The translations under genes were made by a program, and so were the position numbers. Shown here piece after piece: positions 32,978 to 37,748 of a stretch of DNA of 46,780 bases. The notes under the pieces were generated by a model. It made no database searches and had not been told where the DNA came from. It saw only the letters and a program-made list of their open reading frames with translations. The DNA is taken from contig VMSZ01000033.1 of NCBI GenBank assembly GCA_013791885.1, forward strand, positions 1 to 46,780, written 5' to 3'. This DNA comes from Sulfurimonas sp. Its GTDB lineage: Bacteria; Campylobacterota; Campylobacteria; Campylobacterales; Sulfurimonadaceae. Position 1 is the first letter of the stretch; every line of letters starts with the position of its first letter.

Positions 32978-33418
32978 ATGAAGATAGCTTTACCACTGCA
33001 CGACTCTCTAGCAATCTACCACGACAATGCGCATACAGCGCCTAAGTTCGGCATTTATAACATAGATAAAGACTGTGATGATATTCACGTAACTCTTAAT
33101 AGTATTGTTGAAAATCCCTTAAACGCAATCAAATGCAATGACTTTGAAATGGAACAGCGCAACTGCGATTGCAACACAGAGCGCCAGCACAATCTTAGAC
33201 ACAAATGTGAACACTACACCCTGCTTGAAATCATACATGGATGCACTTTTTTACTGGCAAGCAAATATTGTCTAAACACAAAAATAATGATGAAAAACGG
33301 TGGTATTACCATTATAAAAATACCGCCGATTGCAAAAAAAATAGACACAGCGATTAAAAACTTTTTAATAGGAGCCTCACTTGCAAATACAATCAAACAC
33401 ATACACCATGAATCTTGA
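32978..33418 (+). CDS. NifX/NifB-C-like protein with a cysteine-rich insert
   Basis: A 146-residue protein that starts MKIALPLHDSLAIYHDNAHTAPKFGIYNI, the beta-strand entry of the dinitrogenase iron-molybdenum cofactor-binding fold (NifX, NafY, NifB C-terminal domain). A segment with His and Cys (CNDFEMEQRNCDCNTERQHNLRHKCEHY) replaces the usual loop and could bind metal. The last part (GASLANTIKHIHHES) is the usual helix. It heads a six-gene operon ending in nifS, under a sigma-54-like promoter. A role in cofactor or cluster carriage is inferred. Confidence 0.65.
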   Translation: MKIALPLHDSLAIYHDNAHTAPKFGIYNIDKDCDDIHVTLNSIVENPLNAIKCNDFEMEQRNCDCNTERQHNLRHKCEHYTLLEIIHGCTFLLASKYCLNTKIMMKNGGITIIKIPPIAKKIDTAIKNFLIGASLANTIKHIHHES

Positions 33419-33896
33419 AGAGTTACCTTTGGACATAGGCTATGCCTCCCAAAAAGTGACAATGAGTGACATAAATGGCAAAGAGTGTGTTGTTGGAGGA
33501 CAAAATGGTCTTACACAGCTCTTTGTTACTGCCCCCTCTCTTGACGCTGCGTTTTTAGAAGAGCTTAAAAGTCTAAGTGAAATTCTTCCTAAAGGCGGAG
33601 CATACGAAGTAACTGCTTCACTTATTGTCGCAAATAGCAAACATCAAAATCCATTAATTGAGGGATTTGATTTTTACATCGATACACAAGAGGAGTTTGG
33701 GGATTTTTACGGTGTGCGTCTCAAAGGAGAGCCTTACCATGATGAATTTACAAAAGCGCTCATTTTAGTATCAAAAGACGGAGCAATATTTTATGATGAA
33801 TTTTCTTCCAATTTAGAAGATAAATTTAATTTAGACACACTCTATAGAAAAATAGCAGCGGCACAACTCTGCTACACTGGAAAAGGATGCCATTAA
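33381..33896 (+). CDS. Thiol-peroxidase-like protein lacking the peroxidatic cysteine
   Basis: A 171-residue protein. TTG 33381 is preceded by GGAG and overlaps the upstream gene; ATG 33408 is an alternative start. The order of elements follows Tpx: KVTMSDINGKECVVGG, LTQLFVTAPSLD, GFDFYIDTQEEFGDFYGVRLKGEPYHDEFTKALILVSKDGAIFYDEF. Where Tpx has TPVC the sequence reads AAFLEE, so the catalytic Cys is absent. The only cysteines after the N-terminal half lie in the tail LCYTGKGCH. A peroxidase role is unlikely; a binding or chaperone role in the nif operon is a guess. Confidence 0.6.
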   Translation: MQIQSNTYTMNLEELPLDIGYASQKVTMSDINGKECVVGGQNGLTQLFVTAPSLDAAFLEELKSLSEILPKGGAYEVTASLIVANSKHQNPLIEGFDFYIDTQEEFGDFYGVRLKGEPYHDEFTKALILVSKDGAIFYDEFSSNLEDKFNLDTLYRKIAAAQLCYTGKGCH

Positions 33897-34726
33897 TGAA
33901 TGAAGTAATTAGCAAAATAAAAAAAGAGTTGAGAAACCAGACCACGGTTCCCTATTTTGGGCTGGGTGTATTTTCTCAAACAAAAACAAAAGATGGCGAG
34001 CAGATGCCTTATGACTCAGATTCTATGATTTTAACGCTCAACAATGGCCGTGAAATGAGCCAAAGACTTATGTTTGAGTATTCACGTGCGGCAATGCACC
34101 TTGAAGAGCGTCGCGGAGTTGAGTATTTGAAGCAACTTGTCAATCATTTGTACACAAAAGATTTTGAACCAACTGCACTGCATAAAGCCATTGTGGATAT
34201 GTTGCCAAGATACATCATAGACACAAACAGAGACTCAAAATTTCAAGAACTGCTTGCGTACGAGCCTCACTGTTTAATTCTCGGAAAGTCCCGTATTATG
34301 GCAGATAAAAATCGTTATGAGACTTATGAGTACGATGTTGAAAATAAAAAATATTTTTTAGTAGAAGATGATGTGCTAGATGAAGCACAAAAAATTCTAT
34401 TTAAACCAATGGGTTCAACGCTTCCAGAACCGACATTTGTCATCTCTGACGCGGATTATGTGGATTGGCTCACGGAGGCTATGGGCGGATTTGCTCTGCC
34501 TCCTGTTTTAAAAACCTACAGAAAAGCAAAAAAATACCTTTTTCTAGGAACTTCGTTTGACAGAGACACAGACAGAATGGTAGCTAATGAACTCACGCTT
34601 GACCTTGAGGGCGGTTATGTAATTACAGACAAAGAGCTGGGGAAAAAAGAGAAAAAGTTTGTTGAAAAACACAATCTTGAAGTTGTTCCTCTTTCTCTAG
34701 AAGATTTCATTAAAGAGTTCATTTAA
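33896..34726 (+). CDS. SIR2-like domain protein, nif-associated
   Basis: A 276-residue protein. AAGGA eight bases before ATG 33896 and the TAATG overlap with the previous stop decide the start over ATG 33887. It carries VPYFGLGVFS, LMFEYSRAAMHLEERRG, PRYIIDTNRDSKFQELL, LFKPMGSTLPEPTFVISDADYVDWLTEAMGGFALPPVL and KKYLFLGTSFDRDTDRMV. I recognise this as the SIR2-like protein seen in some nif clusters. The TNRD and ISDAD motifs suggest an NAD-type nucleotide site. Whether it deacylates, ADP-ribosylates or only binds NAD is unknown. Confidence 0.6.
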   Translation: MNEVISKIKKELRNQTTVPYFGLGVFSQTKTKDGEQMPYDSDSMILTLNNGREMSQRLMFEYSRAAMHLEERRGVEYLKQLVNHLYTKDFEPTALHKAIVDMLPRYIIDTNRDSKFQELLAYEPHCLILGKSRIMADKNRYETYEYDVENKKYFLVEDDVLDEAQKILFKPMGSTLPEPTFVISDADYVDWLTEAMGGFALPPVLKTYRKAKKYLFLGTSFDRDTDRMVANELTLDLEGGYVITDKELGKKEKKFVEKHNLEVVPLSLEDFIKEFI

Positions 34727-35362: not shown

Positions 35363-36570
35363 GCCAAGAAAAAACCTGTTCGTTTTGTGGCCGTAAACAA
35401 AGCGAAGTAAAAAAGATGTTCTCTTCGGAAACGACAAACATTTGTAATGAGTGTGTAACGACCTGTTCGAGTATTTTACAAAAAGAAGTCAACTATGAAA
35501 AACGCACAAAAATGCATGAGCAATTGCCAAAACCTCAAAAAATTGTAGAGTTTTTAGATAAACACATTATAGGTCAGGAAGAGGCAAAAAAAGTTTTAGC
35601 CGTGGCACTCTACAACCACTACAAACGCATTGAAAACCCTGTCTACAATAATGTAGAACTTGAAAAAAGCAATATCTTGCTTTTAGGCCCAACAGGAAGC
35701 GGAAAAACTCTGCTCTCAAAATCTTTGGCAAAAATCATGAATGTTCCTTTTGCCGTGGCGGATGCGACGGCGCTCACAGAAGCCGGTTATGTGGGTGAAG
35801 ATGTTGAGAGCATACTCTCACGTCTGCTAGCCGCCGCAAACTACGACATAGAACTGGCACAACGCGGGATTATCTACATTGACGAGATTGACAAAATAGC
35901 CCGCAAAAGCGAATCTTCTACAATGGGACGCGATGTCTCGGGCGAAGGCGTACAGCAAGGGCTTCTCAAAATACTCGAAGGTGCGGAGGTCTATGTTCCG
36001 CTCAAAGGAAGCCGTAAAAACTCTACAACCGAAACTGTCCTTTTTGACACAACGCATGTACTTTTTGTCTGCGGCGGTGCGTTTGTCGGACTTGTTCCCG
36101 ACAAAAATACAAAAAAAGGGAACAAAGTCGGCTTTGGTTCAAAGATACAAAAAGATACCAAAGAGATGAAAGTCGACCAAAAAGCTCTGGTTCATTATGG
36201 AATCATTCCTGAATTTATCGGGCGTATTCCTGTTATTGCGCAACTTTATGAGCTGACTAACGAGCAGATGGTGCAGATACTTCAAGAGCCGGACAACGCA
36301 CTTATTAAACAGTTTCAGGCACTTTTTAAAATGGACGGCATAGAGCTGAAATTTGAAGAAAAAGCCTTAAACGCAATCGCTTCAAAAGCGACTGAGAGAG
36401 GTGTCGGCGCGCGTGGACTTCGAGGCATCATCGAAGAAGTGATGCTCCCGCTGCAATACTCCTGCCCATCAAAAGAGAATTTAGAGAGTTGTACCATTAC
36501 TGAGGCTGTGGTTGAAGACCCGACAAAAGAGCCTATATTTACCTATAAAAACGCAAAGGAAGCACAATGA
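35359..36570 (+). CDS. clpX: ClpX AAA+ unfoldase, probably a nif-linked paralogue
   Basis: A 403-residue protein. The N-terminal zinc-binding domain has two CxxC pairs (CSFCGRKQ and CNEC). The AAA+ core has Walker A GPTGSGKT, Walker [11 protein letters not shown], pore loop GYVGEDV and sensor 2 [13 protein letters not shown]. The ClpP-docking loop reads KVGFGSKI where E. coli has IGF. ClpX2 of Azotobacter, also nif-linked, is reported to control NifB and NifEN levels, so a similar job is plausible. It overlaps clpP and nifS by four bases each. Confidence 0.92.
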
Positions 36571-37748
36571 GAGTATATCTAGACAATAACGCAACAACAA
36601 AAATTGACCCGCTCGTTCGAGTAAAAATGCAGCCATTTTTTGAGGAGCTTTACGGAAACCCGAACTCCCTGCACAAGTACGGCATGGAAGTACGCCCTGC
36701 TCTGAATGAGGCTTTGGGAGATATGTATGATGCTCTGAATGTTCCTGATTCGGATGATATTATCATCACATCATGCGCTACTGAAAGCAATAACACGGTA
36801 TTAAAAGGTATCTTTTTTAAATACATTCTCAAAAATCCTGAGAAAAACCACATAGTGACAACTTCTGTAGAGCATCCTGCCATTTTGGACACTCTTTTGT
36901 ATCTGAGTGATTTCGGCGTTGATGTTACTTATGTTGATGTAGATGCTGAGGGTGGCGTGAGTGCTGAAGCTATAAAAGCCGCTGTGACAGACAAAACAAT
37001 TCTTATCTCTATGATGTGGGCAAACAATGAAACTGGGATGATATTTCCGGTTGAAGAAGTAAGTGCGTTTGCCAAAGAAAAAGGGATTTTATTTCATACA
37101 GATGCCGTTCAGGCCATTGGAAAACTCAAAATAGATTTAACTGCCGTTAATGTTGACTACTTAACATTTTCAGCACACAAATTTCATGGCCCAAAAGGCA
37201 TCGGCGGTTTGTATGTCAAAAAAGGGAAACAGCTCCCTAACCTCCTCCACGGCGGCGAGCAGATGGGCGGTAAACGTGCCGGAACGCTCAATGTGGCTTA
37301 TGTTGTAGGCATGGGGCTCGCGATGAAGCAAGCAGCAGGACATGTTGATAAAATGAACACGGATGTAAAAAGATTGCGTGACAAACTAGAAGACGCTCTG
37401 AAAATGATTCCCGACACCATCGTAGTCGGTCCAAGAGACAAACGTACGCCAAATACTATCCTTATTTCACTTCGCGGTATTGAGGGCGAATCTATGCTTT
37501 GGGATTTAAACAAAGCCGGAATTGCAGCTTCAACGGGTAGTGCCTGTGCATCAGAATCTCTTGAGGCCAATCCTGTTATGAGCGCAATCGGAGAAGACCC
37601 GGAACTTGCCCATACTGCAATGCGTTTGAGTTTGTCACGTTTTACGACTGAAGAAGAGATAGATTATACGATTAAAACTTTCATGGCTGCGGCTGAGCGT
37701 TTACGCTCTATTTCATCGACGTATGCATACACAAATGAAGTAGGATAA
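36567..37748 (+). CDS. nifS: Cysteine desulfurase NifS
   Basis: A 393-residue PLP enzyme with [22 protein letters not shown], the PLP-Lys motif [15 protein letters not shown], and the active-site Cys loop TGSACASES in the short (class I) form. The class I loop and the nif operon setting favour NifS over IscS. It mobilises sulfur from cysteine for nitrogenase iron-sulfur clusters. It is the last gene of the packed operon starting at 32978. A NifU with full scaffold is not adjacent. Confidence 0.9.

Follow-up and report, generated by a model that had tools for sequence, protein, structure and literature searches.

Why should a nitrogen-fixation operon encode a second ClpXP protease together with a SIR2-like and a Tpx-like protein? 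The question is raised by six genes at positions 32978-37748 of the window, as the whole 46,780-nucleotide stretch of DNA analysed here is called (Sulfurimonas sp., assembly GCA_013791885.1, contig VMSZ01000033.1, positions 1 to 46,780 of the forward strand). At the level of sequence, the gene content, the linkage to nif genes, the promoter family, the intact ClpXP motifs and the loss of catalytic residues from two of the products are established; from these we infer the expression of the operon, its clients, an adaptor or sensor role for the two pseudo-enzymes, and the signal to which the system responds. The reading to which we give about an even chance is that the operon provides a ClpXP that belongs to the nif regulon and acts on nitrogenase-assembly proteins, which would extend the case of Azotobacter ClpX2, with the two pseudo-enzymes serving as adaptors; the role of such a system may be quality control or shut-off. 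The features concerned are as follows.

32926-32942, plus strand: promoter motif, sigma54-like (-24/-12) and of nif type, CTAGAAC-N5-ATGCA, present upstream in 41/41 gene-1 regions.
32978-33418, plus strand: gene 1, a small protein, possibly of the NifX/Nitro_FeMo-Co superfamily (weak match to PF02579, E 0.065, under the cut-off).
About 33408-33896, plus strand: gene 2, a predicted Tpx-fold pseudo-peroxiredoxin with a C-terminal YTGxGCH (AlphaFold2 model, fold match, peroxidatic cysteine gone).
33896-34726 (alternative ATG at 33887), plus strand: gene 3, a predicted SIR2-fold pseudo-enzyme (PF13289, AlphaFold2, VIA, catalytic histidine replaced).
34763-35362, plus strand: gene 4, a second, nif-dedicated ClpP with Ser-His-Asp intact (profile matches, triad alignment).
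35359-36570, plus strand: gene 5, a second, nif-type ClpX in which the RKH loop has become RKN (NCBIfam, motif alignment, tree).
36567-37748, plus strand: gene 6, a second NifS, or cysteine desulfurase (TIGR03403).
37806-38372, plus strand: a possible extra gene of a conserved family, following nifS after a 57-bp gap (16/81 loci, mostly directly 3' of nifS).

An earlier note on this DNA had described six genes joined by overlaps or short gaps in one operon, and this layout is borne out: all six open reading frames lie on the plus strand, with intergenic distances of -11, -10, +36, -4 and -4 bp (the SIR2-like start being taken at 33887), which include four overlaps. The note had also proposed a check for separate housekeeping clpP and clpX genes, and both are present in the source genome (2.52 Mb in 75 contigs, completeness 99.99%). 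A second ClpX zinc-finger open reading frame lies on contig C15, a second ClpP match on C28, with a further marginal match on C66 (20.0 bits), and a housekeeping NifS, followed by NifU, on C28 (731 bits with TIGR03403). Since the genome thus has its own clpX, clpP and nifS-nifU, the clpP, clpX and nifS genes of the operon are extra copies. The operon ClpX passes the NCBIfam equivalog cut-offs (PRK05342/TIGR00382, 555.6/518.9 bits), as does the operon NifS (TIGR03403, 622 bits against a cut-off of 587.7), while the operon ClpP, which scores 235 bits with Pfam PF00574, passes the subfamily profile PRK00277 (265.5 vs 249) but fails the equivalog TIGR00493 (240.7 vs 308.6). Gene 1 reaches 14 bits with PF02579 against a cut-off of 26.3; its homologue from locus L045 scores 14.9 and that from L061 gives no match. 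Profile alignment of gene 1 with NifX by hhalign was uninformative, two Pfam-accepted groups of NifX likewise failing against each other.

Conservation was assessed in 298 genomes of the order Campylobacterales and in a set of 81 loci, comprising the window and 80 named loci that are not all independent (L051 and L055 share one assembly). A SIR2-like match is found in 68 of the 298 genomes and a nifD-family match in 75, 67 of them over the cut-off. Both occur together in 67 genomes, the SIR2-like match alone in one (G017, as fragments), nifD alone in eight and neither in 222 (Fisher p 2e-56, with genomes counted individually and kinship uncorrected). Among the genomes with nifD over the cut-off, 63/67 possess the SIR2-like gene, the exceptions being G021, G024, G107 and G288. 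The nif-type second ClpX occurs in 51/298 genomes, 50 of them with nifD, and strong matches to the nif-type Tpx (E below 1e-35, counted by eye) occur in 41/298, all within the nifD set. Where the SIR2-like gene and nifD share a contig (47 genomes), they are 7.0-40.6 kb apart; in 16 genomes they lie on separate contigs. The closest named relatives, as judged by the SIR2-like protein, are Sulfurimonas metagenome-assembled genomes.

The gene order is also retained, and its linkage to nif in relatives, which the earlier note had put forward for checking, is confirmed. SIR2-like and ClpX genes lie on one contig in 48 genomes (in one more they are on different contigs), and in 48/48 they share a strand, with the SIR2-like gene directly before ClpX or ClpP-ClpX. 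The spacing is below 60 bp in 29 of these genomes, ClpP-sized in 18 and 203 bp in one. Operon-type ClpP (threshold E 1e-70) was found in 18/298 genomes, and because these are the very 18 with the ClpP-sized gap, the gene probably entered the space between SIR2-like and ClpX later, in a single lineage. The dedicated ClpP of the earlier note is therefore present here but is not general, the nif-type ClpX occurring in 51 genomes.

Across the 81 loci, ClpX is present in 68, Tpx in 67, ClpP in 49, NifS in 47 and gene 1 in 39. NifA, NifB, NifV, NifH or NifD lies within the examined stretch in 62 loci and not in 19, the window included, and the named loci either adjoin a divergent nifB-nifV pair or lie directly 3' of nifA. 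Two arrangements can be distinguished. In the Sulfurimonas/Sulfuricurvum type, to which the gene-1 family is confined, nifV-nifB is divergent from gene 1-Tpx-SIR2-ClpP-ClpX-NifS; the Arcobacter/Sulfurovum type reads AKR-FrdA/NadB-like-NifA-Tpx-SIR2-ClpX-ferredoxin, followed in some loci by NifB. Cluster labels in this second type derive from one representative per cluster, and the AKR and FrdA/NadB assignments are under their cut-offs. The block of AKR, FrdA/NadB-like flavoprotein and NifA preceding Tpx/SIR2 is itself conserved, in L091, L093-L095, L098, L100-L107, L109, L110 and L112-L115.

The putative nif promoter suggested in the earlier note finds support in a conserved 16-mer with sigma54 spacing (-24/-12), TAGAAC-N5-ATGCA in the window, at about -50 of gene 1. 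In a relaxed form, the 16-mer is found 40-80 bases 5' of gene 1 in 38/38 regions including the window (shuffle mean 0.8, maximum 4), and also in L041, L055 and L089, which were checked separately and bring the total to 41/41; the L041 site depends on one of two possible starts. The strict sigma54 consensus was found in 3/38 regions (shuffle mean 0), and sigma70-like sites showed no excess, with 14 in the regions and 14.0 in shuffles. No canonical NifA upstream activator sequence (TGT-N10-ACA) lies 5' of the operon in the window, and one is present in 12/38 regions (shuffle mean 2.0, maximum 7), six of the 12 on contigs named Sulfuricurvum.

A stricter form of the motif, CTRGAAYNNNNNWTGCA, was then run on whole genomes. 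It gave six sites in the source genome and none with a reversed-pattern control, and the six precede this operon, nifB, a NifX-type gene, a Sel1-NifU fusion gene, a gene for an RpoN-type sigma factor, and modA. In five nif-positive genomes assembled as one contig, from 32 genomes tested, 32/32 sites lie no more than 50 kb from the nif span, a region of 5-8% of the chromosome, and the mean number of sites was 4.8 in 20 nif-positive genomes vs 2.1 in 12 nif-negative ones. The operon apparently belongs to the nif regulon, and on this promoter evidence it appears to be co-induced with the nif genes. As to the individual sites, the motif stands back to back at window positions 42274-42303, between the Sel1-NifU fusion and NifX-type genes, and at C73:1313, C50:904 and C66:14342 it precedes nifB, the rpoN-type gene and modA. 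In all six sites of the source genome the -24 box reads TAG, not TGG, and one of the genes downstream itself encodes a sigma54 factor. A second conserved upstream element, ACGACATTTTTGTC, lies at window positions 32872-32885, some 40 bp 5' of the promoter, and recurs in several close relatives.

The claim of a full ClpXP, additional to the housekeeping copies, withstands inspection of the motifs. In the 68 full operon ClpX sequences (partial L075 and L114 were omitted), the zinc finger, Walker A and B, sensor 2 and the GYVG pore loop are kept with few exceptions: one row lacks the sensor-2 stretch and three have GSTGSGKT as Walker A, while the first zinc-finger stretch is listed for all but two of the 68 rows. 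For docking to ClpP, 65/68 have the tripeptide [VMI]GF (VGF in the window), its GF being present even where a lineage has no extra ClpP, and the Ser-His-Asp triad is intact in 50/50 ClpP rows, comprising 49 from operons and the housekeeping protein. The RKH loop is a substrate-recognition element of housekeeping ClpX, a feature of specificity that does not define the enzyme. This loop is RK[N/S] in 68/68 operon ClpX (RKN in the window) vs RKH in 17/17 comparison ClpX. Furthermore, the 16 of the 68 full operon sequences taken into a tree form a clade with support 100/100, distinct both from the outgroups and from 13 housekeeping ClpX found in the order, one row (hkG096nif) being a 216-residue piece. 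Plasmid ClpX matches numbered 66 records, the best 40 of which were judged by record name and three of which served as outgroups; ClpX from a Methylococcus nif plasmid clusters with that of E. coli, not with the operon clade. These residues lead us to read the operon ClpXP as a protease that would be functional and would have a substrate range of its own. In genomes lacking the dedicated ClpP, the nif-type ClpX would turn to the housekeeping ClpP.

The two proteins encoded ahead of ClpP have a different character. The Tpx-like assignment stood as far as the predicted fold is concerned, although the sequence itself is far below cut-offs: the AlphaFold2 model (predicted local distance difference test score, pLDDT, 90.3) matches 2yzh, an Aquifex Prx-like protein, with Z 20.4 in VIA (150 residues aligned, 1.9 Å) and H. 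pylori Tpx with Z 18.6. What did not stand is a role as peroxidase. The peroxidatic-cysteine column holds Cys in 0/41 nif-type rows (one row has a Cys within three columns) vs 9/9 ordinary Tpx, the region of the second cysteine is deleted or changed, and the C-terminus ends in YTGxGCH in 39/41 rows and in GCH in 41/41. A profile built from the 41 rows found matches in 263/298 genomes, the 41 strong ones among them, and nine weak ones that were examined are ordinary Tpx. Judged by these residues, the Tpx-like protein is probably not a peroxidase.

The SIR2-like protein passes PF13289 (SIR2_2) in its C-terminal part (27.2 bits vs a cut-off of 24.5). Its profile, A1, found no SIR2 match among PDB sequences, and a fold search was therefore used. 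The AlphaFold2 model (pLDDT 82.5) matches the SIR2 domains of ThsA, DSR2 and Avs5 with Z of about 14-17, and that of KomC too, the best VIA match being SeThsA (Z 17.4, 238 aligned, 3.5 Å). In an hhalign comparison with six ordinary SIR2_2 proteins (three of nine loci, L119, L120 and L125, were dropped as they gave no usable frame), a probability of 87% was obtained; IIDTNRD aligns with VITTNWD and FKPMG with IKMHG. This second alignment places a different residue at the position of the catalytic histidine, which is M in 73, L in 7 and F in 1 of the 81 Campylobacterota sequences, and so speaks against the possible NAD-dependent protein of the earlier note. The catalytic asparagine is kept in 77/81 by a simple pattern, L106, L110 and L114 being unmatched and one row having T.

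Related genes exist outside the order. A tblastn search of plasmids returned 72 records with a SIR2-like homologue, each aligned over 80% of the query or more, and 69 of the 72 belong to Rhizobium, Mesorhizobium or Sinorhizobium, the others to Methylococcus, Bradyrhizobium and Paraburkholderia; in the best 30 of the 72, identity is 23-27% and query coverage 84-99%. The eight records examined, picked among the best 30, all carry the gene amid nif genes, and their proteins have W in place of the asparagine in 8/8 and keep the histidine in 6/8. Because the Campylobacterota proteins have lost the histidine and the plasmid homologues the asparagine, the complete dyad is present in 0/89 relatives. 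The Methylococcus nif plasmid carries clpP-clpX-lon between its nifHDKENX block and the SIR2-like gene, some 9 kb from the latter, and is a separate instance in which SIR2-like and Clp genes accompany nif; the clpP-clpX-lon genes occupy positions 23329-27830 of L163 (Methylococcus sp. EFPC2 plasmid).

Under the reading proposed at the outset, the operon would be transcribed from a sigma54-type nif promoter within the nif regulon, and would supply a dedicated ClpXP with a diverged ClpX substrate loop, the SIR2-fold and Tpx-fold pseudo-enzymes, and NifS for Fe-S supply. During nitrogenase build-up, ClpX(P) would unfold and degrade assembly proteins such as NifB and NifEN when these are surplus, damaged or unwanted, as ClpX2 does in Azotobacter, and the two pseudo-enzymes would act non-enzymatically, through binding or as adaptors, handing clients over or signalling the cofactor or redox state. 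NifB and NifEN would be the likeliest clients in view of the literature on Azotobacter ClpX2 and on NifA-controlled clpX and clpP in Azoarcus. Azotobacter ClpX2 is said, in work attributed to Martinez-Noel et al. 2011, to affect the levels of NifB and NifEN. In Azoarcus BH72, according to the accessible portion of PMC3916325, clpX (azo2070) and clpP (azo2071) are raised under N2 fixation and controlled by NifA, and in Zymomonas the Nif proteins were inferred to be actively degraded when ammonium is raised, as stated in the accessible portion of PMC8594446.

Several observations weigh against this reading, which rests on sequence. The module is not always complete: 18/68 genomes with a SIR2-like gene have no second ClpX, and in the Sulfurospirillum-type loci L102, L104, L105 and L107 just NifA-SIR2 is left, so that a neighbouring ClpX is evidently dispensable for the SIR2-like protein; L079, L080, L084 and L085 have Tpx-SIR2-NifS without ClpP or ClpX, and L044 is without ClpP; and many Sulfuricurvum loci have nifS or gene 1 detached from the other operon genes. 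In 3/68 operon ClpX, VGL replaces VGF as the docking tripeptide. For seven rhizobial plasmids, the PLSDB gene tables, which are incomplete, show no clpX in the 5-8 kb displayed. As for the promoter, the relaxed pattern was chosen after the sequences had been inspected, its stricter form has sites in nif-negative genomes as well, three of the 20 nif-positive genomes have few or none (G136 has 0, G147 and G255 have 1 each), and G211 has three sites, two of which lie 127 and 179 kb away from nifD.

The incomplete modules are also what favours a possible, if tentatively held, alternative, namely that two independent nif accessories share one operon, the SIR2-fold protein being a nitrogenase maturation or cofactor-handling factor in its own right and ClpXP a nif-induced protease with no functional connection to it. 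Besides the Sulfurospirillum-type loci and the 18 genomes just mentioned, rhizobial nifB...nifZ-nifT-SIR2 clusters have no adjacent ClpX, and the R. capsulatus SIR2 protein Rcc03262 is listed beside NifT and marked NF in a nifA mutant (accessible portion of PMC6925177). Yet this alternative is opposed by the position of the SIR2-like gene just before ClpX at the spacings given above, by the order Tpx-SIR2-ClpX, which is retained across two arrangements, and by the Methylococcus plasmid, where a SIR2-like gene again lies near clpP-clpX-lon.

In a bolder form of the adaptor reading, which we regard as unlikely, the two pseudo-enzymes, of SIR2 and Tpx fold, would sense a ligand or the redox state and, as adaptors, gate ClpXP, giving Campylobacterota a proteolytic nitrogenase switch instead of DraT/DraG; the SIR2 fold would then be an ancient nif component that lost catalysis in both lineages, through His in one and Asn in the other, and was kept as a sensor. 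A search for DraT (PF07357) gave 0/298 genomes over the cut-off and two weak matches with internal stops, though 14 control genomes were also without a match, leaving the sensitivity unproven. This result leaves room for another post-translational control and does not show one.

That ClpX serves mainly as an unfoldase or chaperone for metallocluster insertion or complex remodelling, and not as the partner of a protease, seems improbable to us. The dedicated ClpP is indeed absent from most relatives with a nif-type ClpX (18 vs 51 of 298), and the VGL loops might be taken in the same sense, but [VMI]GF is kept in the other 65, including those where the nif ClpP is absent, and ClpP is intact in the Sulfurimonadaceae-type lineage.

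The product of Z. mobilis ZMO1821, a nif-cluster gene raised under N2 fixation, has been proposed to be a deacetylase (accessible portion of PMC8600466), and by analogy the SIR2-like protein here might be an active NAD-dependent deacetylase with nitrogenase or NifA as its target, a function that the SIR2 fold and the nif-cluster location of ZMO1821 would suit. We consider this very improbable: the histidine is M, L or F in 81/81 Campylobacterota proteins and the asparagine W in 8/8 plasmid proteins, so that none of the 89 has both residues. The SIR2-like protein is probably not a deacetylase on this alignment, and the proposal looks unlikely for the 89 proteins compared, ZMO1821 not being among those aligned. 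Scarcely credible is an anti-phage NADase lying in the nif region by chance, as the closest solved folds (ThsA, DSR2, Avs5 and KomC) might suggest, given the lost catalytic residues, the weak and partial PADLOC defence-family matches (best E 8e-4), the strict co-occurrence with nif and the nif-type promoter.

Comparison with known systems places the adaptor reading in context. ClpX2 of A. vinelandii is likewise a second, nitrogen-fixation-linked ClpX, a likeness drawn by role; here, in contrast, one operon unites ClpX with a dedicated ClpP, SIR2-fold and Tpx-fold pseudo-enzymes and NifS. Azoarcus BH72 likewise has nif-linked clpX and clpP (azo2070/azo2071), and the accessible portion of PMC3916325 mentions no SIR2-like or Tpx-like partners. 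The 'SIR2 family protein' of proteobacterial nif clusters (Rcc03262, ZMO1821, rhizobial plasmids) is similarly nif-linked, the likeness being by description for Rcc03262 and ZMO1821; the plasmid homologues, however, adjoin nifT, nifZ or nifB and not clpX, have lost Asn and not His, and come with no Tpx-like match in plasmids. The SIR2 NADase domains of ThsA, DSR2 and Avs5 share the fold of the SIR2-like protein (Z about 14-17), which differs in having no catalytic dyad and no effector or sensor domain and in its nif context. Gene 2 has the fold of the thiol peroxidase Tpx (Z up to 20), from which it is set apart by the missing peroxidatic cysteine, the deleted or changed second-cysteine region and the new C-terminal YTGxGCH.

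In the main text of open-licence PMC papers, nothing was found on clpX with nif in Campylobacterota/Epsilonproteobacteria; SIR2, nitrogenase and ClpX came together in just the Zymomonas paper and a coral database paper; and clp and sir2 had 0 occurrences in the accessible main text of the Campylobacterota papers checked. A nif-linked ClpX and, from annotation and proteomics, nif-linked 'SIR2 family' genes are already known. What is new, as far as the literature search shows, is the single module that joins ClpX, its substrate loop altered, to the SIR2-like and Tpx-fold proteins and a dedicated ClpP; new too are the promoter family common to these loci and the lost catalytic dyad.

Three neighbouring features stand apart from the operon itself. 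The possible extra gene at 37806-38372 has a look-alike second copy, judged by eye, at C50:8147-8653 near nifEN-type genes. At window 41508-42248, Sel1/TPR repeats are fused to a NifU C-terminal domain (PF08238 and PF01106), a combination present in 15/81 loci. At C73:5674-7182 (L156), between nifV and nifH, lies a leucine-rich-repeat protein whose C-terminal portion resembles, by eye, a GNAT acetyltransferase; a look-alike cluster of such leucine-rich-repeat proteins occurs in 8/81 loci.

The post-translational control and turnover of nitrogenase-assembly proteins are poorly understood, and this limits the transfer of nif into new hosts. The operon described here, carried by sulfur-oxidising bacteria, is a compact and apparently co-regulated module that supplies testable genes, with the SIR2-like gene in 63/67 genomes with nifD over the cut-off and the nif-type ClpX in 50/75 genomes with any nifD, and its SIR2-fold part is common to the Campylobacterota module and to rhizobial nif clusters. 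The finding also bears on annotation, as the nif 'SIR2 family protein', for which a deacetylase function was proposed in Zymomonas, is without the catalytic pair in 89/89 relatives.

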